Source: Bacteroidota bacterium (GTDB taxonomy: Bacteria > Bacteroidota > Bacteroidia > Bacteroidales > NBLH01). From it: a stretch of 64,000 bases of DNA. The position numbers and the translations under genes were made by a program. Under the pieces are notes generated by a model. It searched no databases. It had not been told where the DNA came from and saw only the letters and a program-made list of their open reading frames with translations. Location: contig JANYKN010000033.1 of NCBI GenBank assembly GCA_025361565.1, positions 1 through 64,000 on the forward strand. Direction: 5' to 3'. This document shows, piece after piece, positions 2,674 to 32,055 of the stretch (positions are counted from its first letter, which is position 1; every line of letters starts with the position of its first letter).

Positions 2674-2964
2674 ATGAACTTAGGTAACACTATAAGCACA
2701 TTAAGGCAAAAACGTGGTCTTAAGCAATCTGATTTGGCTGAAAAGTGCCAAATTACACAAGCTTATTTGTCAAATATAGAACACAATAAAAAGGAGCCAA
2801 TTATTGCAATATTAAAGTTGATAAGTTTAGCGTTAGAAATTCCTTTACCTGTTTTATTTTTCCTATCAATGGACGAAGAGGATGTACCTGAAAATAAAAA
2901 ACAATTATTTTCATTTCTTTCGAATAATTTCAAGCCAATTCTAATAAATAATTTTGTTGAATGA
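2674..2964 (+). CDS. XRE/Cro-CI family HTH protein of the retron unit
   Basis: A 96-aa protein. Residues 3-60 form a classic Cro/CI helix-turn-helix (ISTLRQKRGLKQSDLAEK, then AYLSNIEHNKKEP), followed by a hydrophobic helix and a short tail. Its stop codon overlaps the RT start as ATGA (2961-2964), which implies translational coupling. Retron surveys describe a class whose partner protein is a small HTH protein; this order (RNA, small ORF, HTH, RT) suggests a member of that class. It could be the effector, a regulator of the unit, or both. Confidence 0.8.
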   Translation: MNLGNTISTLRQKRGLKQSDLAEKCQITQAYLSNIEHNKKEPIIAILKLISLALEIPLPVLFFLSMDEEDVPENKKQLFSFLSNNFKPILINNFVE

Positions 2965-6664: not shown

Positions 6665-7230
6665 TTTCTAAACAATATAATAACTCATTTTTAAAAAAAT
6701 CAGTAAATGATTTTTACGAAAAACAAATTGAAAATCTTAATACATTCAACTCATTGGTACTTGAAAATAAGGATTTTGAATTTAAAGAGTTTTCTTCTGA
6801 CAAGCCAATTGATTACACCAAATTTAATTTCAAAAAAGCACTATACTTTTTTGAATTGGATGAAAGTGAAGAAAAATGCGAAATCATTTGCAATAAAATC
6901 AAAGACCGGAAAAAGCTAAAAAAGAACGAATTAAAACTTCCAAAAGTCAATTTTGAGAATTTATCTGGGGAAAACAAAATACTTTATGTTGGAAAATCGC
7001 TTGGTCTATTTTCTGAGCGTTTGAAGCAACATTTAGGCGAAGGTTCCGAAAAAACCTATGCCTTACATTTAAATAAATGGAAGGATAACCTGGATTTGAA
7101 AGCAAAATTGAAACTTTATTATACTTCATTCGAAGGTATCATTAAAGATGATCAAAATGATTTACTGGAATTATTAGAATCTTCCTTGCATAATAAGTTA
7201 AAACCAATATTAGGTAGAACTGGCCATTAA
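6661..7230 (+). CDS. GIY-YIG-like protein embedded in the type I operon
   Basis: A 189-aa protein whose ATG overlaps the hsdR stop (ATGA, 6661-6664). A GIY-YIG fold is suggested by ALYFFEL (60-66, GIY strand), ILYVGKS (107-113, YIG strand), an Arg soon after (SERL, R120), and a Glu and Asn in LLESSLHNKLKP (E173, N178). A ~40-residue charged insertion separates the two strands, longer than in the canonical nuclease. Proteins of this kind may add nicking activity or be degenerate DNA binders. The nuclease reading is by motif only. Translational coupling implies a role with the restriction system. Confidence 0.6.
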   Translation: MISKQYNNSFLKKSVNDFYEKQIENLNTFNSLVLENKDFEFKEFSSDKPIDYTKFNFKKALYFFELDESEEKCEIICNKIKDRKKLKKNELKLPKVNFENLSGENKILYVGKSLGLFSERLKQHLGEGSEKTYALHLNKWKDNLDLKAKLKLYYTSFEGIIKDDQNDLLELLESSLHNKLKPILGRTGH

Positions 7231-7289
7231 ATAATCTATAAGAATAATTAAACTTTAAACTTTAAACTTCAAACTTTTTTCTTTTTAAA

Positions 7290-8726
7290 ATGAGCAACAT
7301 ATCAGGCATAATAAAAAGCATCCGCGACATCATGTGGCAGGACACCGGGCTAAACGGCGATGCACAAAGAGTAGAACAACTGGGCTGGATGCTTTTCCTT
7401 AAAATATTTTCGGACAAAGACAAAGAACTTGAGTTACTAGACGACAAATACAAATCGCCCATTCCGGATCAGTTTCATTGGGTAAAAGAAAAAGGAAATT
7501 GGGCTGGCGATGATGAAGGAATAACAGGTGATGCATTATTGGAGTTTGTTGATCGTCAATTATTCCCAGCCTTGCGAAATCTGGATTTAAGCACGGCCAA
7601 CCAACGCGCAGTTATTGTTCGTGAAGTTTTTGAAGGCAATAACAATTATATGAAAAGCGGCATCAACATACGCAAGGTATTGAACAAGCTCAACGAAATT
7701 GATTTCAATATTGCCAAAGACCGTCATGCTTTTGGCGAATTATACGAAACCATTCTGAAGGAACTGCAAAGTGCCGGTAAAAGTGGCGAGTTTTATACCC
7801 CACGTGCCATTACGCACTTTATAACCGATATGATTAATCCCAGACTGGGTGAAAAAATACTGGATCCTGCCTGTGGTACAGGTGGCTACTTAACCTGTGC
7901 CATTGAGCATTTAAAAAAACTGGCTAACAATGTGGATGAACGCAAAAGCATTGAACAAAACATCATTGGATGGGAATACAAGCCATTGCCTTATTTGTTG
8001 GCAACCACTAACTTAATTTTACACGATATTGAAATTCCAAATATTACTTTTCGCGATTCACTTGACCAACCATTGAGCAATTTTACCGAAAAGCACCGTG
8101 TAAATGTAATCCTTGCAAATCCTCCTTTTGGCGGCATTGTGGCTAACGGAAACGAAAGCAATTTTCCACAAACTTACCGGACAAAGGAAAGTGCCGATTT
8201 ATTCCTGATTTTAATGATTCACCTTTTAAAACAAGGCGGAAGGGCAGGAATTGTATTGCCCGATGGTTCATTAACTGGCGATGGTGTAAAACAAAGGGTA
8301 AGGCAAAAACTACTTGAAGATTGTAACCTGCATACCATTATTCGTTTGCCCAATTCTGTTTTTCAGCCTTATGCAACCGTAGCCACCAATTTGTTGTTTT
8401 TTGATAAAGGCACACCTACAAAAGAAGTTTGGTATTACGAGCACCGCCTGCCCGAAGGACAAAAAGCCTACAATAAAACAAGGCCCATCCAGGCCAAAGA
8501 ATTTGAACCCATTAAAAAATGGTGGAATAACAGACAAGAAAGCGAAATTTGCTGGAAAGTAAACATCAATACCATTATTGAACGAGGCTACGATTTAGAC
8601 ATTAAAAACCCAACCAAACAGGAAGAAGAACAAGAGCACAGCAGCACAGAACTAATGGAAATGCTAGATAAAAGTTTTTCGAAAAGCCACGATTTATTAA
8701 TGAAATTGAAGGAGGCAGTAAAATGA
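7290..8726 (+). CDS. hsdM: Type I DNA methyltransferase M subunit (HsdM)
   Basis: 478 aa. An N-terminal HsdM_N helical domain (about 1-150) precedes the N6-adenine methylase domain. The SAM-binding motif I is DPACGTGGY (192-200), preceded by GEFYTPRAIT, and the catalytic motif IV is NPPFGG (~277-282). It methylates adenines in the bipartite site chosen by HsdS and joins the restriction complex. It ends in ATGA overlap with the next gene (8723-8726). The 59-base gap upstream holds an A/T-rich leader, where translation reinitiates. Confidence 0.95.
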   Translation: MSNISGIIKSIRDIMWQDTGLNGDAQRVEQLGWMLFLKIFSDKDKELELLDDKYKSPIPDQFHWVKEKGNWAGDDEGITGDALLEFVDRQLFPALRNLDLSTANQRAVIVREVFEGNNNYMKSGINIRKVLNKLNEIDFNIAKDRHAFGELYETILKELQSAGKSGEFYTPRAITHFITDMINPRLGEKILDPACGTGGYLTCAIEHLKKLANNVDERKSIEQNIIGWEYKPLPYLLATTNLILHDIEIPNITFRDSLDQPLSNFTEKHRVNVILANPPFGGIVANGNESNFPQTYRTKESADLFLILMIHLLKQGGRAGIVLPDGSLTGDGVKQRVRQKLLEDCNLHTIIRLPNSVFQPYATVATNLLFFDKGTPTKEVWYYEHRLPEGQKAYNKTRPIQAKEFEPIKKWWNNRQESEICWKVNINTIIERGYDLDIKNPTKQEEEQEHSSTELMEMLDKSFSKSHDLLMKLKEAVK

Positions 8727-12822: not shown

Positions 12823-12860
12823 AATATAAAATTTTAGCATTTTCCTCTTTTTAGTTTTAC

Positions 12861-12955
12861 TAGCTTTTCTATGTCATATTTAAAATATGATTAATGCGTA
12901 GATTTGCAGCGGCAACATTTCAACAAGGTTCTTATTTTAATAAGAGCCTTTTTCA
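12861..12955 (+). ncRNA. Promoter-hairpin cassette, copy A (candidate tiny RNA)
   Basis: A conserved unit that recurs at 14384-14485. It contains TAGATTTG (12899-12906, TAnnTTTG), a conserved CAG-GGCAACATT segment, then a terminator hairpin AAGGTTCTTAT/ATAAGAGCCTT (12925-12935 with 12940-12950, one G-U pair) and a T run. If the promoter fires near 12912, the product is only about 45 nt. It lies between the HIRAN gene and the GHKL ATPase gene. It may also simply terminate the restriction operon. Confidence 0.45.
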
Positions 12956-13066: not shown

Positions 13067-14329
13067 ATGTCTGGACACGAAAATAAATACTTCAAAAATT
13101 ACAATTGTTGGATACAGGAAAATAAAATTCGTTTTGGGAACTTATCCAACCAGAGGGTAATCCCAGAATTTATAAATTCTATTAACCGCTTAATCTATAA
13201 ATTTGAACACAAGAAAATTATTTTGGATTTTTCTGAGGTCAAACAAATATACCCATTTCCTGTTGTTCCAGTATCTGCATACATTCAATATTTTAAAGAA
13301 AATAATGATATTGAATTTGAGTTTAGCAATATGCCTAAATATCTAAAAAACATAAACTTCGGAAATCCCAAGTTGCCATCAAAATCTTCAACAAACCGAT
13401 ATTCGAATATTCTTGATAAAATTTGGACTTTTAACGATGGTACAGAAGTAAATTTACTCGTAAACGGAATCAAAAATAGTATTCGTAAATCAATTGTTTG
13501 TGAAAAAGGCATTCTCGATGCAATAGATTGGGGTTTAAATGAAGTAATGGATAACGTAATTCAACATTCAGGTATCAATAAAGGTTTTGTAATGTCTCAG
13601 GTTCAAAAGTCAAGTAAAAATTTAAATGTTTGTATATTTGACTATGGTCATGGGATTTATAATACGTTGAAAAACACTCAATATAAACCCAAAAATGCAG
13701 CCGATGCAATTTCATTATGCGTTCAGGAAGGAGTAACACGTGATAAAAAAATAGGGCAGGGAAATGGTTTGTGGGGCCTTTATAATATGGTAACCCTCAA
13801 TGGAGGTCACCTAACAATCATTTCTGGCAAAGGTGGATTGAATTTTAATCAAAAGGATAAAGAAATATATTCATATAAAGATATTATTCTGCTTAATAGT
13901 AAAAATCAGGCAACTAATATAAATTTCCATTTAAATTTAGCTAAGAATATTTCAATTAAAGAAGCATTAAAGGGATATGAACTAACAGATTTATTCGTTG
14001 AAAGTTTAGAAAATGATTATGGTCAATATATTTATAAAATATCTGAAGCTGCATCTGGCACAGGAACACGTCAATCAGCGATTGCTATAAAAAATGAAAT
14101 TTTGAATATTCAGAAACAAACTCAAAAACCAATAGCGCTTGATTTTAGTAATATTGGAATTATTTCATCATCATTTGCAGACGAACTTATTGCAAAATTG
14201 ATAATTGACTTAGGCTATTATCAATTTCAAAATACTTTTAGGTTAATTAATATGAATCCTACAATACAATCAATTTTGCACCGTTCTATTGGTATGAGAT
14301 TTGCAGATACTTTTGTTAATAAAATTTAA
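13067..14329 (+). CDS. GHKL ATPase with STAS-like/DUF4325 C-terminal domain
   Basis: 420 aa, no signal peptide. The N-terminal ~110 residues look STAS-like (KKIILDFSEVKQIYPF). The middle is a histidine-kinase-type ATP fold: N box LNEVMDNVIQHSG (N158-H167), G1 DYGHGI (192-197), G2 GQGNGLWGLYNM (230-241). The C-terminus (about 320-405) matches DUF4325: IALDFSNIGIISSSFADEL. No His phosphoacceptor domain is present, so it is more like an anti-sigma or sensor ATPase than a kinase. It stands alone on the plus strand, convergent with the ubiquitin-like operon, and is bracketed by the two promoter-hairpin cassettes. Its role, perhaps a sensor or switch for that operon, is unknown. Confidence 0.75.
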   Translation: MSGHENKYFKNYNCWIQENKIRFGNLSNQRVIPEFINSINRLIYKFEHKKIILDFSEVKQIYPFPVVPVSAYIQYFKENNDIEFEFSNMPKYLKNINFGNPKLPSKSSTNRYSNILDKIWTFNDGTEVNLLVNGIKNSIRKSIVCEKGILDAIDWGLNEVMDNVIQHSGINKGFVMSQVQKSSKNLNVCIFDYGHGIYNTLKNTQYKPKNAADAISLCVQEGVTRDKKIGQGNGLWGLYNMVTLNGGHLTIISGKGGLNFNQKDKEIYSYKDIILLNSKNQATNINFHLNLAKNISIKEALKGYELTDLFVESLENDYGQYIYKISEAASGTGTRQSAIAIKNEILNIQKQTQKPIALDFSNIGIISSSFADELIAKLIIDLGYYQFQNTFRLINMNPTIQSILHRSIGMRFADTFVNKI

Positions 14330-14383
14330 AAATAGAAGATATATTAAATATATCTTTCGTATTTTTTGTTTTTTCCCTTTTTT

Positions 14384-14485
14384 TAGCTTTTCTTTGTCTC
14401 AAATAATAAACAATTATGCTTAATGCATATATTTGCAGTGGCAACATTATAACAAGGTTCTTATTTCGATAAGAACCTTTTTTTA
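14384..14485 (+). ncRNA. Promoter-hairpin cassette, copy B (candidate tiny RNA)
   Basis: Second copy of the 12861-12955 unit. TATATTTG lies at 14428-14435, followed by the same GCAG-GGCAACATT segment. A perfect 11-bp stem AAGGTTCTTAT/ATAAGAACCTT (14454-14464 with 14469-14479) is closed by a TTCG tetraloop and followed by seven T. The base changes between copies preserve the stem (G-U in A becomes A-U here). It follows the ATPase gene and overlaps the 3' end of the convergent DUF6527 gene, so it can serve at least as the ATPase gene's terminator. Confidence 0.5.
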
Positions 14486-14817
14486 TTCCCTTTTTTGAAT
14501 CTTCTTTTCGAATAATTCTCCCTTTCAAACCAGTTCTTGGCCATCCTGATTTTGCTATTAATAATCCAATAATGTGATCTACAAGCAAAATTCCAATTCC
14601 CAATGGAAGGATAAAGAGAGATAGTCTTTCCATCAAATGTCAGTTTCCAATCATTTGGCGCAATCGGCGTAACAACCTCATTGCCACAGCCACACACGCA
14701 TTTGTGTATAGCTGTGCAATATTCAAATGAGATATACAATATTCCATCTTCAAGTTTATCTGGGATAAACTCAACAAATTTGTGCTGTAAAATCATCATT
14801 TGCCAGGTGTGAATCAT
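14461..14817 (-). CDS. DUF6527 protein of the ubiquitin-like operon
   Basis: 118 aa from ATG 14817; in-frame ATGs at 14799 and 14796 are also possible and nearer the conserved part. The family core is clear: [20 protein letters not shown], then [31 protein letters not shown] and FACRSHYWI. The Cys/His set (HxCxCGCG ... CRSHYW) suggests metal binding and a role as a peptidase-like or zinc-ribbon partner. DUF6527 proteins are known to co-occur with multiubiquitin and ThiF genes. It overlaps the E1-like gene's 3' end by 47 bases. The last codons run into the hairpin of the opposite-strand terminator. Confidence 0.8.
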
Positions 14818-15958
14818 TAATTGAATACGAAGAATTATGTTCCTTAATTAAATCCTGATAAAATCCGCATAATTTTTTCCATTTGATAACTGCAAAAAGT
14901 GCATTTAATGCGTTTAAATCAGCTATTTGAATATTTGTACTATACTCATTATTAATATCATCACCACAGGATATTCGATTAAACAAATGATCATGTTTAT
15001 CTGAAGTTCCGGTAGTAACCCTTAAAGTTCCAATAAGGCTATTATCAACAATATTAACACCTAAGCCGACATCAAAGAATGGAATATTCATTTTTATAAG
15101 ATATTCAATGATGTTCCTTTTTACAGAATCCTTATCAATTGCAACAAATACATAGGTCATATTTCCCAATTCCTCAATATTTGCTTCATTGATATAATAA
15201 GGATGAGCAATCACATTTTTATGCATCTTTGAATAAATTTTCTTATAATATTCCGGTTTTGATTTTCTCATGTTCAATTCTTCAATTGTTGCAGCTCCTG
15301 GTGAACGAAAAGCATTATGCAAAAGGAATTCATCTCCATCATATAAATGGATTTCCAGAACAGGAGTTTTAGCAACAAAATCTAAAATATATGCACCGGT
15401 TCCACCTAGTCCAATGATTGCAATCTTTTGACCATTAAACTTTGAACTAATCAAATTAATGTTGGCCCGGCTGGAATTTGTATCCCAATAATTAAAAACA
15501 GAATTTGGACTTTCGTCATATATAACCTTGAAAGTTTTTTCTGTAACGCTTTTATCCAACGATTTTGCGGGTGCTGAAATTATTCCGGAATACATAGTCA
15601 CTTTGTGATAATAATCATCATAACCATTTGCTGGTTTATTCGAAAAAGAATGATTTATCGTAATTCCATCAAATAGTATTTGATTTGGGCTTGTATGTTT
15701 TATTTGAGCAATGATACTGCCATCATTATTACAAGGATGTTCACCCATGAAATTTATGACATGGGTATTCGGTTTGGCAGTTTGTTTATTATTATATAAT
15801 GTAAGCTCACTTACCAATATACCAAATTTTATTTCTTTCGAATGGTTTACGTAAGGGATATGGTGGATAAGCAAATATCCACCGTTTACCTCAATTTCAA
15901 AACCTTCGTCCCTGAGTCGCTTCAAATCAGGACTATGATCTATTAGTTGCTGTGACAT
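14771..15958 (-). CDS. E2/E1-like ThiF-family ubiquitin-activating protein
   Basis: 395 aa. The C-terminal ThiF/E1 adenylation domain shows the nucleotide-binding loop [12 protein letters not shown] (182-193), the acidic strand end LYDGDEF (D207, D209) and the conserved Arg in HNAFRSPGA (R218). Near the end, [20 protein letters not shown] (C331) holds a possible catalytic Cys. The first ~130 residues form a separate domain with [16 protein letters not shown] (C76), resembling the E2-like domain fused to ThiF in bacterial polyubiquitin-type operons. It would adenylate the C-terminus of the multiubiquitin protein and pass it on. It overlaps the upstream gene by 26 bases. Confidence 0.82.
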
Positions 15959-16406
15959 TGAAAATCATTTTATTTTTAACAAATACCTCAACTCCTTTAA
16001 CCATAGAACCTTCATGGTTTTGTCCTGGTCCATGTGAATACGAAACAGTATAAACTGTTGTTTCATCTTCAACATAATTTTCAAAAGCAAGCTTTACAAC
16101 TTGTTCATAAGAAATTTTCCTTTCGGTCCATTTTTTTTGCCTTCCATTTACAATGATTTCAACTGAATGTTCATCATGTTTTTTGGAAAAGAAATGTTCA
16201 ATACCAGGTCGGGCTAAATCTATCCTGGTATCATCAAATATTGGTTCATCTTCCCATGGTCGTTTAATAGACAAAAAGATTTTCTCATCTTTAGGTATAC
16301 TGCCAAGATTTCTGACTTCAGCACCTGTAATGTATTGATGCTCCCATTTGTAATTTTCACCATTTATTATTAATGGTAATTCATTGTTATTTTTCAAATT
16401 AATCAT
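15933..16406 (-). CDS. Multiubiquitin-domain protein (tandem ubiquitin-like)
   Basis: 157 aa made of two beta-grasp-like units. The first (about 10-75) reads LPLIINGENYKWEHQYITG ... GIEHFF. The second (about 80-157) reads VEIIVNGRQKKWTERKISYE, VVKLAFENY, YTVSYSHGPGQNHEGSM and [14 protein letters not shown], which is the signature of the bacterial multiubiquitin family. The C-terminus is NVTATNRS with no Gly-Gly, so conjugation, if any, uses a different tail or needs processing. It is the first gene of a three-gene minus-strand operon with the E1/E2-like and DUF6527 genes. Confidence 0.88.
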   Translation of the reverse strand: MINLKNNNELPLIINGENYKWEHQYITGAEVRNLGSIPKDEKIFLSIKRPWEDEPIFDDTRIDLARPGIEHFFSKKHDEHSVEIIVNGRQKKWTERKISYEQVVKLAFENYVEDETTVYTVSYSHGPGQNHEGSMVKGVEVFVKNKMIFNVTATNRS

Positions 16407-16965: not shown

Positions 16966-16996
16966 TTTGATATATTTAGATTTAAGTGTATATTTG
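16966..16996 (+). promoter_or_regulatory. Promoter of the XRE/ImmA pair
   Basis: TTTG at 16966-16969 and TATATTTG at 16989-16996 are 19 bases apart. This places transcription start near 17002 and rules out an upstream ATG at 16967 as the start of the XRE gene. Confidence 0.75.
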
Positions 16997-17011
16997 TATA
17001 AAAAAACCGCC

Positions 17012-17356
17012 ATGAAATCATTAGGATTTACACTTAAAGAAGCACGAGCGTTAATTTCTCTCACACTTAGGCAAGTTGAGGAAGCAACTGGAATTTCCAA
17101 TGCATATTTGAGTCAATTGGAGAATGATAAAATAAAAAAGCCTTCGGCAAATGTGTTATATAAATTAGCATCAATATACAAAATAGAGTTAAATACGCTC
17201 TTAAGTGCAGCAGGAATAATACAGAAATCTGAAAATTCGGAAAAACCGAATTCATCGGAATGGGGAAAAAGAATTGCTTTTTACACTGATGAATTATCTG
17301 ACGAACAAAAAGATAAAATATTAGAATATATTGAATTTTTAAAACATAAAAATTAA
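17012..17356 (+). CDS. XRE-family transcriptional regulator
   Basis: 114 aa from ATG 17012, the first start after the promoter. The HTH is FTLKEARALISLTLRQVEEATG then AYLSQLENDKIKKPSANVLYKLA. A Ser/Asn/Pro linker and a C-terminal amphipathic helix (DELSDEQKDKILEYIEFL) follow. It is two bases from the downstream ImmA/IrrE-type peptidase gene. In known pairs the peptidase cleaves or inactivates the XRE repressor to switch on an element or stress response. Confidence 0.85.
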   Translation: MKSLGFTLKEARALISLTLRQVEEATGISNAYLSQLENDKIKKPSANVLYKLASIYKIELNTLLSAAGIIQKSENSEKPNSSEWGKRIAFYTDELSDEQKDKILEYIEFLKHKN

Positions 17357-17358
17357 TA

Positions 17359-18255
17359 ATGTTCGATCTACCTTCCAAATCCGATATTGAGAAAATTTCG
17401 TTAGATATTCTTAAGCAAAGTAAAGCCCTTGACGTATTTCCGACTCCGGTTGATAAAATTATCAATTATGCGAATCTTCATTTAAAAGGTGATATTGATC
17501 TATCAAAAGTTGACCATTCTTTTCTATCTAAGTTTTCCGATGCGGTAGCTAGTAAGTTTCTTGAAGCTATGGGCCTAGTGAGAGGGATTATAGATAGAAA
17601 GGAAAAAACAATATATTTGGATTTAAGTCAAAATCTATCTCGACAAAACTTTGTTAAACTTCATGAAGTCGGACATGATGTATTTCCTTGGCAAAGGGGG
17701 ACATTTGAACACATAGACGATGATAATACTTTAAACCCTTACACAAATGAAGAATTTGAAGCAGAGGCAAGTTATTTTGCATCACTCACTCTTTTTCAAC
17801 AAGATCGATTTGAAAATGAAATGAAAAAGCTAGAGTTAGGTATGAAGGCTCCAATGTATTTGGCTAAACATTTTGGTGCCTCCAATCATGCTGCATTGCG
17901 AAGATATGTTGAATGTTCTAAAAATAGATGTGCATTGTTGGTCTTAGAAAAAATTTCGATGTATAATGGTTCTGCATTTTGTAAAAAAAGAGATTTCTTT
18001 TCATCAAACAAATTTCAGGAAACATTCGGTACAATAGAATTTCCTGTCGAGTTTGATTCAACTTGGCAGTTTGCCCAAGATTATTTTTTCAAAAAAAGAT
18101 ATCATGAAAAAGGGAGTATCTCCTTAATTACAGAAAATGGAGAGTCAGATTTTAAATATCATTTTTTTAATAATACATTTAACGCTTTTATTTTTCTTTT
18201 CCCACTTGGTGAAACTAATAAAACAAGGACAAAAATTATTATTTCAAAGAGTTGA
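17359..18255 (+). CDS. ImmA/IrrE-family metallopeptidase
   Basis: 298 aa. The zinc site is NFVKLHEVGHDVFPW (HEVGH at 102-106), with a downstream Glu in EEFEAEASYFAS (about 133-143) as the likely third ligand. The C-terminal ~120 residues are a separate alpha/beta segment. The gene follows the XRE regulator with two bases between them, so the two are co-translated and probably interact. Such pairs regulate integrative elements or act as toxin-antitoxin-like modules; which applies here is not shown. Confidence 0.85.
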   Translation: MFDLPSKSDIEKISLDILKQSKALDVFPTPVDKIINYANLHLKGDIDLSKVDHSFLSKFSDAVASKFLEAMGLVRGIIDRKEKTIYLDLSQNLSRQNFVKLHEVGHDVFPWQRGTFEHIDDDNTLNPYTNEEFEAEASYFASLTLFQQDRFENEMKKLELGMKAPMYLAKHFGASNHAALRRYVECSKNRCALLVLEKISMYNGSAFCKKRDFFSSNKFQETFGTIEFPVEFDSTWQFAQDYFFKKRYHEKGSISLITENGESDFKYHFFNNTFNAFIFLFPLGETNKTRTKIIISKS

Positions 18256-20900: not shown

Positions 20901-21227
20901 ATGATTGAAGATACCCTGAAAAGTCAAATCGAAATATTCAAATCTGTTTTCAAAGGCAGGGAAGATGTTTTTGCTATTCGTTGGGAAAAAGGAAATAAAA
21001 GTGGCTATATGCCAGTCTATCTATATGATGTTTATCGGTATCGCATACATAAAATGAAAGGTGGAACCCTTCAAAATTTTACAGAAAAAACTTACTTACC
21101 ATATTCTGAAGAACAAATTGCCAAACATCTCAGAGGCCAACAATTGATTGGTATTTACCCATTATTAAAGGATAACACTTCATGGTTTATTGCAGCTGAC
21201 TTCGATAAAAATGGTTGGGAATCATGA
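20901..21227 (+). pseudogene. Truncated TOTE-system primase-domain gene
   Basis: 108 residues match the start of the archaeo-eukaryotic primase domain of TOTE conflict systems: SVFKGREDVFAIRWEKGNKS, GYMPVYLYDVYRYR, YLPYSEEQIAKHLRG and GIYPLLKDNTSWFIAADFD. In the full protein this leads into the rest of the primase, then helicase and nuclease domains. Here a TGA at 21225-21227 ends it right after the first catalytic strand (ADFD), and nothing downstream continues it. The remaining ~1000 residues are missing, so it is a remnant left by deletion. Confidence 0.75.
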
Positions 21228-22962: not shown

Positions 22963-23431
22963 TATTAACTATCTGAAATAAAGCCTGTTGATTTAAATGA
23001 AAACAATTAATCCACAAAGATAGGCTCAGTCACAAACGAGGCAAAAGACTACGGCATAAACGTTCTCAGCTTCCCAAAAATTCAACCAATCAATAATCAA
23101 TAGACAATTATCAATCATCATTTCTTCCTGTCATTTATTCCGTTTCCTTTTGCACTTATTGCTCCCTAACACCTAATGATGAAGCATATTAATTGTTTTT
23201 ATGTTTCACTTTAAATCTTTCGTTATGGATAAAACTGGTGCATATTTCAGGTTATTGGCTCAGGCTCGTTATCATCGTTCACTTTTCAGTTATTATGTTA
23301 GCAGGCAGTGTTTTCATTCAGCGCTTCGTTGCTTGCGTTTGGCTTCTTTAGTTCGCTCAGGTTTTCATAGGGGGCTTCCATAGTTCCCTTTTTTATTGTT
23401 GTATGCACATGTCGGATTGACAAAGGAATAG
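22963..23431. other. Non-coding stretch with short gene debris
   Basis: A short frame at 23017-23103 (IGSVTNEAKDYGINVLSFPK, ending at a stop) looks like the end of another lost gene. The rest (23104-23431) shows nothing coding; an open frame at 23201-23383 has no family features. This debris separates the LRR gene from the repeat-bracketed cassette. Confidence 0.4.
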
Positions 23432-23563
23432 ACCAGGCACTTTCCCTGCCCCCGAAAAAAACACTTTGCTGTCGCAAAACTCATTTTTTCCGTGTTCAGG
23501 TAAAAAGCCTTACCCCAGAGCAACTTTTATCAAAACTACAATCCGCATCCGGCACATTAAAAT
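23432..23563 (+). repeat. Direct repeat copy 1 bracketing the nuclease/AAA/WYL cassette
   Basis: About 132 bp that recurs in the same orientation at 28254-28384. The left end (CAGGCACTTTCCCTGCCCC), a core of about 39 identical bases (roughly 23475-23513) and the right end (CATCCGGCACATTAAAAT, ending 23563) are conserved. A stretch of about 30 bases between core and right end is diverged. It does not look coding. Confidence 0.8.
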
Positions 23564-23809
23564 ATTATAATCATATCGAAATAATTCAAAGAATATAAAA
23601 TTTTTATAATCAGTATAATTATTGCATAATTTAATTTCCGTAATTCCGCTTATTATTAAACAATTATATATATTTTAGTGTACGGATAGTGAACTCTTCT
23701 ATAAGGTGTTTTTTCATAAAAAAAGAAACACTAAGACATATTTTGGCGCATCTAATTCATACTTTTGAATTAAATATGATTAATAAAACTGCCCAACAGA
23801 TAAAACTTT

Positions 23810-24289
23810 ATGAGTAATTCTTTTACAGCAATTGATTTTGAAACTGCACATGGAAAGCGTTGGAGCATTTGTCAGGTAGGTATTGTAAAAGTAGTTCAAG
23901 GAGTTATATCTGATGAAATCAGTTTATTGGTTCAACCACCCGATAATTACTATTTTTATAAGAATATTGAAATACACGGAATTACATCAGAGCAAACACG
24001 CAATGCGCCGTCATTTCCAACCGTTTGGAATGAAATTAAACACTTAATCCAGGATCAAACAGTTGTTGCGCATAACGGAGCCTTTGATTTTAACTGCCTT
24101 TATCAAACTTTGAATTACTATGGATTAGAACATCCAAAATATAATCAGAAATGTACTTACAAAATTTATGGTACAAATCTGGCTGATTTATGTCACCAAT
24201 ATAAAATAAAGTTAAATCATCATGATGCTTTGAGTGATGCCCTGGCTTGTGCAAAGCTTTATTTAATTTCACAACAAACAAATATTTAA
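23810..24289 (+). CDS. DnaQ-like 3'-5' exonuclease (DEDDh)
   Basis: 159 aa, single domain. The DEDDh residues are visible: FTAIDFETA (D9, E11), VVAHNGAFDF (H88, D93) and LNHHDALSDAL (H138, D143). This is the fold of the polymerase III epsilon subunit, here free-standing and short. It starts a four-gene cassette (exonuclease, PD-(D/E)XK protein, AAA ATPase, WYL regulator) between direct repeats; the next gene begins three bases after its stop. TACTTTTG at 23760-23767 may be its -7 promoter element. Confidence 0.85.
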   Translation: MSNSFTAIDFETAHGKRWSICQVGIVKVVQGVISDEISLLVQPPDNYYFYKNIEIHGITSEQTRNAPSFPTVWNEIKHLIQDQTVVAHNGAFDFNCLYQTLNYYGLEHPKYNQKCTYKIYGTNLADLCHQYKIKLNHHDALSDALACAKLYLISQQTNI

Positions 24290-24292
24290 AAT

Positions 24293-25483
24293 ATGGATAC
24301 AACTGCAATTGAAAAACTATTAAATGAAGTAATTAACATTACTAAAAAATATCAGAAAGACGCTAAACCTGGCGATAACTTTAACGTTTTTAAAATATTA
24401 AACTTATCTTCTAACGAAGCAAGAACACATTCTGCCTTCATTGCTGAACTTCTAAACCCTGATGGGACACATGGAAAAGGTAACCTTTTTTTGATCGAAT
24501 TTGTGAATATGTTAAAAGAGAAGCATACAAATTCACATGATCATATCATATCAGAAATAAAATTCAATCCGGAGAATATAAAGGAAGTTAAAAGGGAATA
24601 TTGGTTGGGCAATAAAACAGAATCAGAAGGAGGGTATATTGATATTTTACTTACTGATGAGAACAACCAGCATATTATTATAGAAAATAAAATTTATGCT
24701 GGTGATCAGGAAAATCAATTATTACGATACCATCACTTGGATACCAAAGCACCAATTGTTTATTTGACTTTAGATGGGAAAATACCTTCTGAAAATAGCA
24801 TTGGAACAGAAAAATCTATTAAAGATAGGCTAATTTGTATTTCTTATGAATCAGAAATAATTAATTGGTTGGAAAAATGTAATGGACAGATTAAGGATTT
24901 ACCAGTTATTACAGAAACCATTAAACAATATATTCATTTAATTAAATATTTAACAAATCAAACAATGGAAAAAGATGAAATTAAGGAAATAGTAAATTCA
25001 ATTATAGGTAGTTCTGACCAAATTGAAGCCGTTAAAGCGTTATCTGATAATGAAATATGGGATGAAGTTAGAAAAAAAATCATGCTTGATTTAAGTTCAG
25101 AAATAATAGGGGATGATGGAATTATAAAAGAACTTGGTCTTAAAGTAGAATATCGTAAAGATATCGATTTTGGCATTAAGACATATGAATTTTGGTTTTA
25201 CAAGGAAAATTGGAAGTACTGTATTCATTTTTACTTTGCAGCCAATTTTGAAGAAATTATTTATGGTATTAATGTTAAAAATAATAAGGATAAAATATTA
25301 GTATCTGAATTAAAAAAATTCAAAGGTATATTAGACGAATCCCCAAATAACGATGGTTGGATTTGGTCTGATTATTTTGAAGAATATAGAAAAATTTCTT
25401 GGTTCAACTTAAGAACAAAAGGTAGAAATTTGTTTAGAGCTAAAGTGAATGAGCTAATTGAAAAAGTTGGAGACATAATGTAA
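24293..25483 (+). CDS. PD-(D/E)XK nuclease-family protein (PDDEXK_4-like)
   Basis: 396 aa. The N-terminal half has the family's conserved entry SSNEARTHSAFIAELLNPDG and the catalytic strand pair GGYIDILLTDE (D117) and HIIIENKIYAGDQENQL (E131, K133), with Q138/Q142 after it. The C-terminal half is alpha/beta without recognised motifs. Members are common in phage-defence neighbourhoods and are thought to cleave DNA. The gene is packed against the exonuclease gene, and 143 bases separate it from the ATPase gene. Confidence 0.8.
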   Translation: MDTTAIEKLLNEVINITKKYQKDAKPGDNFNVFKILNLSSNEARTHSAFIAELLNPDGTHGKGNLFLIEFVNMLKEKHTNSHDHIISEIKFNPENIKEVKREYWLGNKTESEGGYIDILLTDENNQHIIIENKIYAGDQENQLLRYHHLDTKAPIVYLTLDGKIPSENSIGTEKSIKDRLICISYESEIINWLEKCNGQIKDLPVITETIKQYIHLIKYLTNQTMEKDEIKEIVNSIIGSSDQIEAVKALSDNEIWDEVRKKIMLDLSSEIIGDDGIIKELGLKVEYRKDIDFGIKTYEFWFYKENWKYCIHFYFAANFEEIIYGINVKNNKDKILVSELKKFKGILDESPNNDGWIWSDYFEEYRKISWFNLRTKGRNLFRAKVNELIEKVGDIM

Positions 25484-25600
25484 ATATTTGAATATTTTTG
25501 AAAAAGTCTCCTGTAGTTCTATTATATAATAACTTATAATTTATTTTAATTTTTTATTGCGTAAATTGTTACTGCGTCACATCTTGTCGTCCTTCGTCCA

Positions 25601-25608
25601 TATCTTTG
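25601..25608 (+). promoter_or_regulatory. -7 element before the AAA ATPase gene
   Basis: TATCTTTG fits TAnnTTTG. It overlaps an in-frame TTG at 25606, so that TTG cannot be the start; ATG 25627 is chosen instead. The ATPase and WYL genes thus have their own promoter. Confidence 0.55.
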
Positions 25609-25626
25609 TTCAAAAATGACAAAGAT

Positions 25627-27294
25627 ATGGAAAAGGACTTAAAAATAAAGCTTTTAGAAAGTATAGGTAGTATCTTCGAACAGTCAAAGGAATGTAAACT
25701 TGAATCTTCTTATTTTGAGAAAATTGATAATGAATTGAAACTCCTTTCTGATTATTTCAATGTTTCAAAAAATCAATCGTTTTTTATAGCAATGATTTTT
25801 GCATTAAACTACATGGGTAAAACTGTTGATATTAATGCGCTTATCCAATATTTTGATTGCAATCCTATGAAATTACTTGAATACAGCGAAGATTTTGAGC
25901 TTTTATATTCAAAAGGTATTTTTAGTAAACAAAAATCAAGTCTTAAAGCCTGGTTGACAAGCACTGGCGAACAATTCTCCATTAATGAGAAAATAAAAGG
26001 GGCAATTCTTCAAAATAAACCATTGCCTTTGATCGAGAAAGAAGAATTTAAAGATGTGGTTGAATTTCTTGAAAAAATATATAACACAGGTCAACAAAGA
26101 GATAACGATGAAATTTCTACAGTTGAATTATTTATTCAAATAGAAGAAATGGTTTCCTCTAATTTGCATTTTCCATTGGTTAAAAAGATTTATGATCTCC
26201 AATTCAGGGTACCGGACACTTATATTTACTTTTATCTTATCTGGAAAGCACTGCTAGGTAATGAAACCAATGATATAAGAAGGGCTTTAGAAGGAGTCTT
26301 TGACAAAACTTCCGAACGGGTAAAGTATCTGCAAAAGATTTTATCAGGTGAAAATGCTTTAATTAAGAACAATTTGGCTGAAATTGTTGAGGCAAGTTTT
26401 TTCAATGACATCGAAATAAAATTATCAGAATACTCCTTGAACATAATAAGTGAGTACGACTTAAAACTAATCGCTAAAAATCAGAAAAAGGACAATATCA
26501 TTCAACCTTCACAAATCAAAGTAAGAAAACTTGTTTTTAATGAAGATGAAATGAATCAGTTGGTCTTATTGAAAAATCTTTTGCAAGACTCTAATCTTTA
26601 TGAAACTCAAAACAAATTGCTCACCAGGAATTTCTCAAAAGGAATAACTGTATTATTGCATGGACAACCTGGAACTGGAAAAACAGAAACAGTTTTGCAA
26701 TTAGCTAAAGAAACCAACCATGTAATAATGAAAGTTGAAATCAGTCAATTAAAATCAATGTGGTTTGGTGAAAGCGAAAAAAATATCAAACGCATTTTTA
26801 CTGATTATAAATCCTACGCCAAAGAATGCGAACGTATTCCAATACTTTTTTTTAATGAAGCAGATGCATTAATTTCAAAACGCAGGGAAATAAGTAATTC
26901 TAATACAGCGCAAACAGAAAATGCAATTCAAAATATAATTCTTGAAGAATTAGAAAATTTTGAAGGAATTTTAATTGCAACAACCAATCTTGCTAATAAT
27001 TTCGATACTGCGTTTGAAAGACGTTTTTTATTCAAAATCAAATTCCAATTGCCTGATATTTCAACTAAAGCGAAAATTTGGAAATTAAAACTACCAAACT
27101 TGTCTACTTCCGATTGTGAAGACCTTGCCTCACGTTTTAATTTTTCAGGTGGGCAAATTGATAATATTGCAAGGAAAAATGAAATCCATGAAATATTATA
27201 TGGATTATCTGATGGGTATAAAAGTATTCTTAAGTTTTGTCAAGAAGAAATACTCGGAAACAATAGACTTCAAATAGGTTTTACTAAATCTTAA
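25627..27294 (+). CDS. AAA-family ATPase with long N-terminal region
   Basis: About 555 aa. Residues 1-320 are helical and unrecognised; the C-terminal ~240 form an AAA module. Walker A is VLLHGQPGTGKTET (about 343-356), then the pore-like segment SQLKSMWFGESEKNI. The Walker B strand reads ILFFNEADALI, with Asn where most AAA proteins have Asp. The arginine finger is FDTAFERRFLFKIKF. This resembles the spastin/FtsH-type clade. It likely remodels a protein partner, perhaps the nuclease encoded upstream. The WYL regulator gene follows after five bases. Confidence 0.8.
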   Translation: MEKDLKIKLLESIGSIFEQSKECKLESSYFEKIDNELKLLSDYFNVSKNQSFFIAMIFALNYMGKTVDINALIQYFDCNPMKLLEYSEDFELLYSKGIFSKQKSSLKAWLTSTGEQFSINEKIKGAILQNKPLPLIEKEEFKDVVEFLEKIYNTGQQRDNDEISTVELFIQIEEMVSSNLHFPLVKKIYDLQFRVPDTYIYFYLIWKALLGNETNDIRRALEGVFDKTSERVKYLQKILSGENALIKNNLAEIVEASFFNDIEIKLSEYSLNIISEYDLKLIAKNQKKDNIIQPSQIKVRKLVFNEDEMNQLVLLKNLLQDSNLYETQNKLLTRNFSKGITVLLHGQPGTGKTETVLQLAKETNHVIMKVEISQLKSMWFGESEKNIKRIFTDYKSYAKECERIPILFFNEADALISKRREISNSNTAQTENAIQNIILEELENFEGILIATTNLANNFDTAFERRFLFKIKFQLPDISTKAKIWKLKLPNLSTSDCEDLASRFNFSGGQIDNIARKNEIHEILYGLSDGYKSILKFCQEEILGNNRLQIGFTKS

Positions 27295-27299
27295 AGCTA

Positions 27300-28205
27300 A
27301 TGTCAAAAAGAGAATCAATTTCCAGATATAGCCTGATTATTAAAAAGCTTAGAAAACATCCGGCTTCTTTTGCTGAAATCTCAGATTATCTTGCTTTAGA
27401 ATCTGAATTACAGGAATATGATTTCAATATTTCAAAAAGGACATTTCAGAGAGATATAGAAGATATTCGTTCAGTTTATCATATTGATATTCAATATGAC
27501 TTTTCACGAAAAGTGTATTTTATTGACTATGAACAAGAACCCGAAGTTAATGAGAGGATTCTGGAGGCTTTTGATACATTTAATGCACTAAATATTACCG
27601 ATAGGCTTTCTGATTATATACATTTTGAAAAAAGACGACCCCAGGGAACTGAAAATCTTTATGGTTTGTTACATGCAATAAAGAACCAGGTTCAAATAAC
27701 ATTTACTTATCAAAAATATTGGGAAGACGAATTGACCCATAGAACAACGGAGCCTTATGCACTTAAAGAGTTTAACAACCGCTGGTATGTTCTTGCCAAA
27801 GATCTTAAAGATAATCATGTAAAAAGCTTTGCACTCGACAGGTTAACAGAACTTGAAATAACAAAAAAGCCTTTTCAATTTCCGAATAATTTCAACGTAA
27901 ACGAGCATTTTAAATATTGTTTTGGAATAATTAGTCCTAATGAACATAAGCCTCAAGAAGTCATTTTATCATTTAACTCATTTCAGGGTAAGTATATCAA
28001 GTCATTACCACTTCATTCATCCCAGGAGGTTTTGAAAGACGACGATGAAGAATTAATCATCAAACTCACATTGTTTATTACACATGATTTTTTCATGGAA
28101 CTTTTATCTTATGGAGAAAATTTAAAGATTATTAAGCCGGATTCTTTGATTGCTGATATAAAAAAGGCTTATAGAAATGCCTTAAAACAATATTTAATTC
28201 TTTAA
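27300..28205 (+). CDS. WYL-domain transcriptional regulator
   Basis: 301 aa. An N-terminal winged helix (SRYSLIIKKLRKHPASFAEI, then ISKRTFQRDIEDIRSVY) precedes a WYL domain whose motif is NNRWYVLAKDL with the downstream FALDRLTELE. A C-terminal WCX-like domain ends the protein. WYL proteins bind nucleic-acid ligands and control many defence loci. Its place as the last gene of the cassette suggests that it represses or activates the four genes. No operator was identified. Confidence 0.88.
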   Translation: MSKRESISRYSLIIKKLRKHPASFAEISDYLALESELQEYDFNISKRTFQRDIEDIRSVYHIDIQYDFSRKVYFIDYEQEPEVNERILEAFDTFNALNITDRLSDYIHFEKRRPQGTENLYGLLHAIKNQVQITFTYQKYWEDELTHRTTEPYALKEFNNRWYVLAKDLKDNHVKSFALDRLTELEITKKPFQFPNNFNVNEHFKYCFGIISPNEHKPQEVILSFNSFQGKYIKSLPLHSSQEVLKDDDEELIIKLTLFITHDFFMELLSYGENLKIIKPDSLIADIKKAYRNALKQYLIL

Positions 28206-28253
28206 TCTATCTGATTACAACCCAAATAAGCACCCCAATATCTTTATCTTCCC

Positions 28254-28384
28254 ACCAGGCACTTTCCCTGCCCCCGGAAAAAACACTTTGCTGCGCAAAA
28301 CTCATTTTTTCCGTGTTCAGGTAAAAAGCCTTACCTCTCTGCGCTTTGAATCAACGATACCTACTCCATCCGGCACATTAAAAT
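28254..28384 (+). repeat. Direct repeat copy 2
   Basis: The same unit as 23432-23563, same orientation, with identical ends and core and a diverged stretch before the right end. The two copies are 4.8 kb apart and enclose exactly the exonuclease-to-WYL gene cassette. Confidence 0.8.
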
Positions 28385-28426
28385 TTTACTATTTACCAGG
28401 TTTAAATATTGGTAGTAAAATTTTAA
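28378..28426. repeat. 14-bp perfect inverted repeat
   Basis: TTAAAATTTTACTA (28378-28391) and TAGTAAAATTTTAA (28413-28426) flank a 21-base centre. It overlaps the right edge of direct repeat copy 2 and could be a terminator or a recombination-associated hairpin. Confidence 0.6.
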
Positions 28427-29220
28427 AAAGCCGATAAAAAACTCTGCAAAGGGCATTCACCCTTGCGATTTAATCTATTGCAAATTAAGCGGTATTTTTT
28501 TTTGCCACTGTTAGCCTGGCTTGGAAATGGTTTTGGTTCAGAATCAGCTTTTTCCAATTTAAATTCTGTTGTTTTTGATACTTCAGTGGAAAGCCAGTCT
28601 ACCAGCTTGGGTTTATATGGTATCCCAGCCGGCAGGCTTGTCAAAAATGCCGCCAAACCGTCTGTACCCATTTTTTACTTTTTCTATTTGATTTGATTGG
28701 TTAAAAAATAAGTACAGCCGCCCTTCGGGTTTCCATTTCATTCCAAGTTTGTCATCATTTCTGAGCTTCACCAGCCGTCTGGTCTGTGCTGCTACTCTTG
28801 TCTGGCTGCAAAATTCCGTAAACTCCATTTAGCAGCCTGCCAACAGCAGCACTTTTTTTTGTAGCGGGCCCTGCGAGGGTTGCCAGGCGTTTTTCAGTCG
28901 GTTTTTTTTTCCTCTTTTGTTTTATATTGTAAAATAACCGCCTAAAAAAACTCCAGAAGCTAAGGTTGTGGCTTTGGGTGCCTGAGGTTCTCGAAGGCAG
29001 CCACAACCTAAGCTCCAGCACTTCCAAAAGCAGTTCGTACCTCACTGCATTTTTTTGTAAGGCTGGCAACCCTACCCGCAGCGGGCCCGCGCACTCGTCG
29101 ACAGTGCCGTTCTTTGATTTCTAAGCGCCGTTCTCGTATCAGGAAAAGAATCTATACCCACCCACCACCCTTTTAAAGCAGGGCTTATGTTATTAATATT
29201 CAGCTTTATAAATTTATTAT
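28427..29220. repeat. Structured, GC-richer non-coding block with nested inverted repeats
   Basis: Arms at 28863-28886 and 29063-29090 are imperfect complements (shared GGGTTGCCAG and GCGGGCCC blocks). Inside, GCTAAGGTTGTGGCT (28959-28973) pairs with AGCCACAACCTAAGC (28999-29013) with one mismatch. The block is clearly richer in GC than its neighbours. Open frames on both strands span the repeats and show no family features, so it is treated as non-coding. It may be the end of a lost mobile element or a structured RNA. Confidence 0.55.
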
Positions 29221-29243
29221 TCAATTCAAATTACAAATTATTG

Positions 29244-29312
29244 TCCCAACATTAGGACAATTTAAATAATGTCCTTACATTTGGACTTTAATTGCATAGT
29301 CTTTACTTTTGA
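29244..29312 (+). promoter_or_regulatory. Tandem operators and promoter of the small HTH gene
   Basis: Two GTCC-N8-GGAC palindromes lie at 29244-29259 and 29272-29287, 28 bases apart, sharing ACATT in the centre. The promoter TTTG (29281-29284) and TACTTTTG (29305-29312), 20 bases apart, overlaps the second palindrome. This layout predicts autorepression by the HTH protein encoded 20 bases downstream. Confidence 0.7.
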
Positions 29313-29332
29313 ATCAGCAATAATTGTTGATG

Positions 29333-29521
29333 ACTATGCAAGAAAAAATAATTGAATTTTTCAAGGAAAGACCTGCATTATCAGTAAATCATATTGAAAA
29401 AGAAGCAGGCTTGCCACCAACTACTTTAAGCAAAGCTGTGCGTGGTGAAAGAAATCTAAATGAAGCACATATTCAAAAGCTAATACCAATTTTAAAAAAG
29501 TATGGGTTTATAATAGAATAA
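29333..29521 (+). CDS. Small HTH DNA-binding protein
   Basis: 62 aa from ATG 29333 (an in-frame ATG at 29324 is also possible). It is almost only a lambda-repressor-like HTH: LSVNHIEKEAGLPPTTLSKAVRGERNLNEAHIQKLIPIL. Two matching palindromes overlap its promoter, so it is probably autoregulated. It precedes a toxin-like membrane protein gene and may control it. A 7-bp hairpin (AGCACTG/CAGTGCT, 29535-29568) follows the stop. Confidence 0.75.
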   Translation, partial: TMQEKIIEFFKERPALSVNHIEKEAGLPPTTLSKAVRGERNLNEAHIQKLIPILKKYGFIIE

Positions 29522-29611
29522 AGTGAAATAAAAAAGCACTGTTCCAGTCGGCAAACTTTCGCAGTGCTATGAAATCTTAACAATTATTGCTAATCGTTAA
29601 TTTCTATTCCG

Positions 29612-30076
29612 ATGACAAAAGTATCAAATCTTATTGTTATTATGAAAGCTATTGCTTTATTTTTGGTAATTCCGTTAGTGTCTATTTTATGGTTCTCACC
29701 AAATGAGCGTGTATTAAAACGTGATAAAGAAATAGAACACATCTTATCAAAAGAATATCAGAATGATTTTAGCGTCCAGTATGCATTAGTGGCCAATGAA
29801 GAGGGATATTTCCCTTGCTATGGTTGTGCTGAAGGTCAAATTTATTTATATCCTGGAGAAATCTGGAAATATGGTAAAACTTGCAAAGGTGAATCAGGGC
29901 GTTATCCAAACGGTTTTCCGGTTCCAAACTTAAAGTTTGTCATTCAGTTCGAAGGAACTGAATCCGAGTGTTTGGTGGAAGAAAAGCGAAAAATATATGC
30001 TTACGAATCTTTGCTTGAATGCCAAAAGCGAAACATCAAATTACCAAGACCACCGGGCAATAAAATAGACCGATAA
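29612..30076 (+). CDS. Membrane-anchored GIY-YIG-like toxin candidate
   Basis: 154 aa; ATG 29642 is an alternative start. One N-terminal hydrophobic helix (AIALFLVIPLVSILWF) is followed by a soluble domain. Residues fit a minimal GIY-YIG fold: GQIYLYPGEIWKYGKT supplies the two tyrosine strands, GRYP the Arg, ESECLVEEKRKIY the Glu, and a terminal GNKIDR the Asn. Bacterial polymorphic toxins with such (URI-type) nuclease tips are known. The next gene starts three bases after the stop and could be the immunity gene. The assignment is by motif spacing only. Confidence 0.5.
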   Translation: MTKVSNLIVIMKAIALFLVIPLVSILWFSPNERVLKRDKEIEHILSKEYQNDFSVQYALVANEEGYFPCYGCAEGQIYLYPGEIWKYGKTCKGESGRYPNGFPVPNLKFVIQFEGTESECLVEEKRKIYAYESLLECQKRNIKLPRPPGNKIDR

Positions 30077-30079
30077 AAT

Positions 30080-30478
30080 ATGAGAGAATTTGAATTTACA
30101 ACGGCAACAAAAGAAGAACTAACATCGAAACTTGATGTATTCAAAGAGTTGCAAACATTATTCAATGAAAACCTTAAAATTTCTGATTACTCAGAAATTT
30201 ATACTTCTATTTTTATGGTCTATCAATGTTTTCCTGAAAACTCTTCTTATTTTAATGCAAAAGCCTATAGCCATATTCGCAGAAAAACAAATGTAATAGA
30301 AATCTATTCCTTACTCGATTACGAAACAATCTTAAATACTGATACAAATAAAGTTAAAACGATACTGTCCGATACCTACTTAAATTCAATAAATCAATAC
30401 CTTAAAATAAAAGGTTTTAATCATGAAGAATTTCACAATGATGTGAAGCAGATTTTAAAACCCTATTTACAATTATAA
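30080..30478 (+). CDS. Putative immunity protein for the GIY-YIG-like toxin
   Basis: 132 aa, soluble, helical and moderately acidic (TATKEELTSKLDVFKELQTL ... SHIRRKTNVIEIYSLLDYET). No known domain is recognised. Being coupled to the toxin-like gene (three-base gap) and of typical immunity-protein size is the only evidence for the role. Confidence 0.45.
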   Translation: MREFEFTTATKEELTSKLDVFKELQTLFNENLKISDYSEIYTSIFMVYQCFPENSSYFNAKAYSHIRRKTNVIEIYSLLDYETILNTDTNKVKTILSDTYLNSINQYLKIKGFNHEEFHNDVKQILKPYLQL

Positions 30479-31200: not shown

Positions 31201-31842
31201 ATGGGAGTAATAAAGCAAGGTATTTTAGGTGGAATTTCCGGCAAAGTCGGAACCGTAGTGGGTGGCACCTGGAAAGGCATTGATTATTTGAGAGCCAGAC
31301 CGCAAAAGGTCGCCAACCCAAACTCAGAAAAGCAACAGAACCAAAGAACCAAATTTTCAACTGTATTAGGTTTCTTAAAACCTTTTACCGGATTTGTAGC
31401 AGTTGGTTTTAAATCTCTTTCAGTAGGACAAACCGGCTTTAATGCTGCAATGTCTTATAATGTTAAAAATGCTGTTACTGGCATTTTTCCTAACTTCGTG
31501 ATGGATTTTCCATCTACTCTTTTAAGTTCAGGAAAAGCAACAGGCGCAATGAATCCATCAGTAGCAAGTGCCGCTCCAGGTACCATTCAATTTGGTTGGG
31601 CAGACAATTCAGGAATTGGAAATGCAAAAACTGATGATGTTGCAGTTTTAGCCACATTTTTTGAAGGTAGTTCTGAGGCTGTTTACCAGTTTACCAACAT
31701 CCAAAGAAATGCATTGGTTGCAGAATTAATCGTTCCAGATGTATACAGCGGTCAAGTAGCCCAATGTTGGTTATGTTTCCAAACTGCTGACGGAAAAGAC
31801 ATTTCAAACAGTTTGTACATAGGTACTGTGAATCTAGCTTAG
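31201..31842 (+). CDS. DUF6266-family protein
   Basis: 213 aa. The start MGVIKQGILGGISGKVGTVV followed by WKGIDYLRARPQKVANPNSE and QRTKFSTVLGFLKP is the family's conserved N-terminus. The rest is beta-rich, with Gly and Ala clusters. Function is unknown; members are common and multicopy in Bacteroidota. There is no signal peptide. A terminator follows at 31874-31904. It is the last gene of the accessory half, next to the tRNA. Confidence 0.85.
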   Translation: MGVIKQGILGGISGKVGTVVGGTWKGIDYLRARPQKVANPNSEKQQNQRTKFSTVLGFLKPFTGFVAVGFKSLSVGQTGFNAAMSYNVKNAVTGIFPNFVMDFPSTLLSSGKATGAMNPSVASAAPGTIQFGWADNSGIGNAKTDDVAVLATFFEGSSEAVYQFTNIQRNALVAELIVPDVYSGQVAQCWLCFQTADGKDISNSLYIGTVNLA

Positions 31843-31975: not shown

Positions 31976-31981
31976 TTACTG

Positions 31982-32055
31982 TGGGCCCAATAGGGCTTGA
32001 ACCTATGACTCCCTGATTATGAGTCAGGTGCTCTAACCAACTGAGCTATGGGCCC
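31982..32055 (-). tRNA. tRNA with CAU anticodon (Met elongator or Ile2)
   Basis: The minus strand folds as a full cloverleaf: acceptor GGGCCCA/TGGGCCC, D arm GCTC/GAGC, anticodon arm CCTGA-CTCATAA-TCAGG, T arm ATAGG-TTCAAGC-CCTAT, discriminator A. CCA is not encoded. The CAU anticodon fits either elongator tRNA-Met or the TilS-modified tRNA-Ile; the sequence alone does not decide which. Its 3' end faces the accessory island. Confidence 0.92.

Follow-up and report, generated by a model that had tools for sequence, protein, structure and literature searches.

How does a single defence operon come to lie between two copies of a non-coding repeat? Defence genes gather in mobile elements and, to our knowledge, the slotting-in of single defence operons is seldom visible. 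In the window analysed here, meaning the whole 64,000-nt stretch of DNA, such an operon can be compared with its surroundings elsewhere: a single genome has the block both with and without a cassette, and subtypes indicate which hairpin would have arrived with the cargo. The first-pass annotation had described direct repeats with an identical core of ~39 bp around an exonuclease, a PD-(D/E)XK nuclease, an AAA ATPase and a WYL gene, with no recombinase inside, and all of this is borne out. The repeats (23432-23567 and 28254-28388) align over 136 columns at 85% identity and score 152 bits, whereas none of 60 shuffled pairs exceeds 27 bits, and between them lie four genes, none of which encodes a recombinase:

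23810-24289, + strand: DEDDh 3'-5' exonuclease, 159 aa (Pfam RNase_T 6.8e-21; PADLOC DEDDh 2.1e-26)
24293-25483, + strand: PD-(D/E)XK nuclease, PDDEXK_4, 396 aa (Pfam/PADLOC 4.9e-35; 2e-96)
25606-27294, + strand: AAA ATPase, IetA-like (Pfam/PADLOC; start more likely at ATG 25627, 555 aa)
27300-28205, + strand: WYL regulator with WCX domain, 301 aa (Pfam/PADLOC; directly after AAA homologues in many genomes)

There are ~188 nt from the left repeat copy to the start codon of the exonuclease gene, and 44 nt from the stop codon of the WYL gene to the right copy. A repeat of ~131 bp, as first reported, does exist here, but homology extends over ~195 nt per copy and takes the form of two hairpins in tandem order, HP1 and HP2. 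A covariance model (R1), trained on six copies of this paired-hairpin motif (HP), matches both copies at full length:

23428-23622, + strand: left copy, HP_L (R1 192.8 bits; subtype sites near those of contig C185, locus L006); HP1 at 23435-23510, HP2 at about 23550-23613 with a degenerate 3' arm
28250-28442, + strand: right copy, HP_R (R1 205.8 bits; subtype of contig C134, locus L007, to which it is 88% identical); HP1 at 28257-28331, HP2 at 28371-28433

HP1 (~76 nt) is near-invariant, loop included, whilst the part between the hairpins is variable. Because HP1 hardly varies in sequence, covariation is no test of it; folded as RNA, the HP1 of the right copy reaches z = -4.15, a value that no shuffle equals. 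HP2 (~64 nt) carries compensatory changes, with 7 pairs altered on both sides, and the covariation score of the whole structure is reached by none of 500 shuffles, slid-partner controls scoring lower as well. The fold is possible on both strands, so that the acting form could be either DNA or RNA, and the orientation of HP is constant. Against Rfam, the repeat region and one empty block gave only chance-level or miRNA-family matches, all below the gathering score.

Both copies belong to a wider unit, a conserved and largely non-coding block of ~1.4 kb in which HP lies between a left module (LM) and a right module (RM), followed by conserved genes:

22985-23394, + strand: LM, a dispersed repeat with a sharp left end (AAAACAATTAATC...) and homologues at several loci
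23225-23383, + strand: small ORF in LM, 52 aa (MDKTGAYFRLLAQARYHRS...), from an alignment read by eye
28443-29181, + strand: RM, largely non-coding, with a GC-rich long-range palindrome
29324-30478, + strand: genes for a 65-aa HTH protein and for proteins of 154 aa and 132 aa, common to C185 by sequence match

Homologues of LM lie on contigs C105, C195, C153, C134, C185 and C18 and, in a second species of the genus (G003), on C276/C969; to its left the sequence is unrelated at most loci. The small ORF is probably translated, judging from a by-eye reading of the alignment in which its frame is retained in five copies with indels in multiples of three, and a terminator-like hairpin follows it. 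RM is 91% identical to its C134 counterpart in the first part and 87% in the second, is also present on C185, C18, G003 C276 and C582, and shows by eye a compensatory difference in its palindrome on C18. On this side homology to other loci runs through ~29181 and further, with 28840-30444 being 87% identical to L006 10160-11764. Empty sites carrying one repeat, for which a search had been suggested, do exist: blocks of LM, a single HP and RM, with no cassette, lie on C134, C185 and G003 C276, and at the first of these (L007) the left flank of the window (23188 onward) is joined to the right flank (28254-29181) through one HP. Other module orders are seen at L008 and L176, and the order on C18 is HP-LM-RM; on G003 C969, two LMs are followed by an AbiE gene 93% identical to that of the window. 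A DDE transposase is inserted in the LM of C105 and, at L008, a single ORF directly after RM (5650-8376) combines an RNase H-like N-terminal region with an IS66 transposase.

How widely is this motif distributed? In the 6.76-Mb source genome R1 finds five HP copies on four contigs (C77 twice, C185, C134 and C18), and in G003 it finds HP at two places, so that further copies, for which the first-pass annotation had suggested a search, exist both in the genome and in a relative; five other genomes of the genus have no R1 match. An HP1 pattern search gave no match in IMG/VR and, in a collection of genome contigs, nothing beyond G003. Among 393 genomes of the order, the block has only short matches (25-47 bp) outside its own genus, many of which fall in a stretch that contains a REP-like TGAGCGnAGTCGAA hairpin. 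Such hairpins are contained in the RM of L053, L054 and L008, and the REP-like stretch has short matches in genomes from other families. The assembly is fragmented (199 contigs, 2.6% contamination), and we infer the contig joins used below from exact 141-bp overlaps.

The block is carried by a family of integrative elements laid out as tyrosine integrase, RteC, Rep, DnaC-like loader, variable defence cargo, LM-HP-RM and conserved right-end genes. C105 and C134 together form a whole element at tRNA-Pro(GGG), with a 15-bp att core (TCTTCTCACCCCGAC) at both ends, which in C105 lies within the 3' end of the tRNA gene; the gene order is integrase, RteC, Rep-like, DnaC-like, AbiE, DUF4007, PAPS-reductase, HNH, TOTE, LM-HP-RM and right end. 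C134 (3,604 bp) supplies the block and the right-end genes, and shares its exact 141-bp ends with other contigs (the left with C105 and C153, the right with C153 and C83), as would a collapsed two-copy repeat. C153 and C134 form a second element, whose cargo comprises an Eco57I-type R-M enzyme, metal transport, and DUF262-like and DUF1016-like genes (the last two by eye); it is seen as a junction of right end to left end, as either a circle or a tandem copy would give. At the ends of L186, L187 and L007, the right end of one element abuts the left end of another with the att core between, which points to tandem elements or a circular form at tRNA-Pro(GGG). An IntDOT-like tyrosine integrase adjoins RteC in both complete relatives, C105 and C153, and no relaxase turned up among those of their ORFs that were inspected and scanned; the family's recombinase has a tRNA gene's 3' end as its shown target, not HP.

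The island in the window has the same right-hand gene order, with its left end beyond the contig edge and its right end beside a tRNA gene:

31201-31842, + strand: DUF6266 protein at the right end of the island (Pfam DUF6266 1.6e-68)
31981-32055, - strand: tRNA-Met, 3' end toward the right end of the island (ARAGORN)

We saw no convincing duplicate of an att core near this tRNA-Met, the tRNA-Arg of C185 or the tRNAs of C18. A phage origin of the DUF6266 protein was considered and rejected, with no tblastn match in INPHARED, none in IMG/VR and no PHROG. The island is best explained as the right end of an RteC-type integrative element, from a genus-restricted family, together with the cargo of that element. 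The first-pass annotation had wondered whether the repeat marks cassettes or belongs to a dispersed element unconnected with them, and the answer lies between the two: HP is part of a dispersed element, yet this element does carry defence cargo, although the other HP copies are single, sit in the core block and have the cargo upstream of LM rather than between two HPs, which is the normal arrangement in the family.

Which parts of the locus, then, were there first? The LM of the window is 96% identical to L007 against 54% to L006, and the first part of RM 91% against 70%, which marks LM, HP_R and RM as what would be one resident block of C134 type. HP_L differs: it is closest to L006, at 12 of 15 informative four-taxon sites, which lie only in columns 100-180, all beyond HP1, with a bootstrap of 76. 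Over the full motif it is 77% identical to L006, with no close donor, and the spacer between LM and HP at the left junction has no good match in any other copy. With a degenerate HP2 arm, no close donor and a moderate bootstrap, this subtype signal could in part reflect accelerated decay. As HP_L is of another subtype than HP_R and the flanks, plain target duplication is unlikely, and the best fit is recombinational exchange at a repeated boundary, one of the routes proposed at the outset. We propose that a unit of hairpin and cassette probably entered a block already in place through recombination in the HP1 core, as the pattern of identities suggests, with homologous recombination as the simplest candidate agent. 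A resident block with LM and RM of C134 type would have been present first, and the incoming unit would have consisted of a second hairpin pair, of C185 type, and the four-gene defence operon; a single crossover in the near-invariant HP1 core, with a co-resident element or a circular intermediate as partner, would yield LM-HP(B)-cassette-HP(A)-RM in one step, with a hairpin pair on each side. Neither a donor locus with the same cassette nor a circular HP-cassette form was found. The site of the defence genes looks like a place of recombinational insertion, and most HP copies of the family are without these four genes.

Could the same arrangement stem instead from two tandem elements that fused, a deletion having removed the right-hand part of one and the left-hand part of the next, so that the cargo of the latter came to lie between the HP of each? 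Cargo normally lies to the left of the block, the HPs differ in subtype, and LM, HP and RM occur in other orders at L008 and L176, all of which suits a fusion; the contig-end overlaps also fit tandem elements at tRNA-Pro (C105-C134-C153-C134), and fit a circle equally well. However, the second element must have lost its LM too, and the LM and RM of the window are both of C134 type, as one resident block predicts; we regard a fusion as unlikely. Rather more doubtful is the idea that HP1 serves as a folded site for an unlinked tyrosine recombinase, by which HP-led cassettes would be inserted and excised in the manner of integrons. HP1 is almost invariant in stem and loop next to a variable inter-hairpin part, HP keeps a constant orientation, the breakpoints fall in or at HP1, and the genome has many tyrosine recombinases, including a 598-aa orphan on C53; yet HP has by eye no attC-type R boxes, no gene exceeds the TIGR02249 cut-off, a bracketed cassette occurs at only one HP place, and the integrases of the element family sit at the 3' end of tRNA genes.

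We give little credence to a broader version, in which HP1-HP2 would fold into a recombination site that has no relation to integron attC, and integrative elements of Bacteroidales would use it to gain and swap defence cassettes led by a hairpin. Finally, a cassette flanked by direct repeats brings to mind the ends of a composite transposon, or a target-site duplication made upon cassette insertion, and transposases do occur in other copies of the block (the IS66-fusion gene at L008 and the DDE transposase in the LM of C105). But the cassette is without a transposase, its repeats are 14-26% divergent and of different subtypes, and HP is single in empty blocks; the subtype result largely refutes this reading, which we consider highly improbable.

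What would the genes of the cassette do? From its gene families, the cassette is probably a nuclease-based anti-phage operon. The exonuclease retains its catalytic motifs (by eye) and is separated by a gap of 3 bp from the gene for the PD-(D/E)XK nuclease, which in PADLOC has only candidate status, as phage-defence candidate PDC-S26. The AAA ATPase has an intact Walker A and, as Walker B, FNEAD; the WYL gene starts 5 bp past it, its product containing WYL and WCX domains and an HTH that is assumed. A separate promoter serves the AAA gene, and an inverted repeat spans its -7 box:

25597-25631, no strand assigned: inverted repeat TCCATATCTTTGTTCAAAAATGACAAAGATATGGA, 13 bp and perfect, with the -7 box TATCTTTG

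Similar palindromes precede AAA homologues at L104, L133, L135 and L137, with weaker ones at L134 and L142, and several of the homologues so preceded come from other families; the palindrome is likely a WYL operator. Relatives of the AAA ATPase (E <= 1e-30) occur in 45 of the 206 genera searched, with none in other genomes of the same genus in that search. The AAA-WYL pair recurs in many Bacteroidales; in 20-odd neighbourhoods a WYL gene usually adjoins the AAA gene, and the partners of this pair change, including HsdR, GmrSD/DUF262, McrBC, Schlafen, PDDEXK_4 and exonuclease. Probably the WYL protein keeps the AAA-WYL promoter repressed by way of the palindrome until infection or DNA damage relieves repression, upon which the AAA ATPase, the PD-(D/E)XK nuclease and the DEDDh exonuclease would attack or process foreign DNA. 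Taken jointly, a structured HP element in an RteC-type block, recombinational insertion of a hairpin-led cassette and an anti-phage operon as its cargo form a reading that we hold with somewhat more belief than doubt.

The elements resemble CTnDOT, NBU1 and Tn6031, RteC-type ICEs and IMEs, in their Arm-DNA-bind_5/SAM_5 tyrosine integrase, RteC, HTH excisionase-like protein and insertion at tRNA 3' ends; Tn6031 is listed at tRNA-Pro (PMC5704250), and IntDOT-like integrases and RteC have been tied to Bacteroidota islands (PMC6316836). In contrast to these, no relaxase or mating genes were recognised here among the annotated ORFs, the cargo is mainly defence, and there is a conserved structured LM-HP-RM unmatched in Rfam. 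This undescribed block is the part most worth following: supported by covariation, it is a candidate for an origin, a transfer site or an RNA, in elements that have no recognised relaxase. With defence operons regulated by WYL proteins, BrxR or CapW, the cassette shares a WYL-WCX regulator in a defence locus and a promoter-spanning inverted repeat, inverted repeats being bound by the WYL protein BrxR (PMC9122601); here, however, the WYL gene lies downstream of an IetA-like AAA ATPase gene with which it is paired, and the partners are PD-(D/E)XK and DEDDh nucleases. Integron gene cassettes likewise place genes beside a folded, repeated non-coding motif, whereas here the motif is part of the element core. 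An integron cassette as such was rejected: by inspection, the attC core RYYYAAC/GTTRRRY is absent at the HP ends, and the best IntI result (TIGR02249) is 122.5 + 87.1 bits against a cut-off of 265. The 598-aa orphan tyrosine recombinase on C53 (L200 1583-3379) has integron-integrase similarity under the cut-off, and a GC-rich inverted sequence near the contig end (L200 115-270) is attC-like by eye.

The window holds further features. A second direct repeat of about 105 bp (12855-12953 and 14378-14482, 80%) stands on both sides of one gene, DUF4325 STAS-like (13067-14329). In each copy a terminator-like hairpin comes after a TAnnTTTG-like box, much as in a very short unit of transcription, and the repeat was found nowhere else in the genome. 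Nearby lie a ubiquitin-like conjugation operon (14461-16406: multiubiquitin, E1-like ThiF/DUF6791 and DUF6527), and an HTH regulator with an M78/IrrE peptidase (16967-18255), akin to the damage-responsive regulators CapH/CapP. A reverse transcriptase (2961-3779) possibly belongs to a retron or is another defence RT. The TOTE primase gene at 20901-21227 is truncated, an LRR gene filling the gap, and an intact 939-aa TOTE relative is carried by the C105 element (L174 5019-7838).
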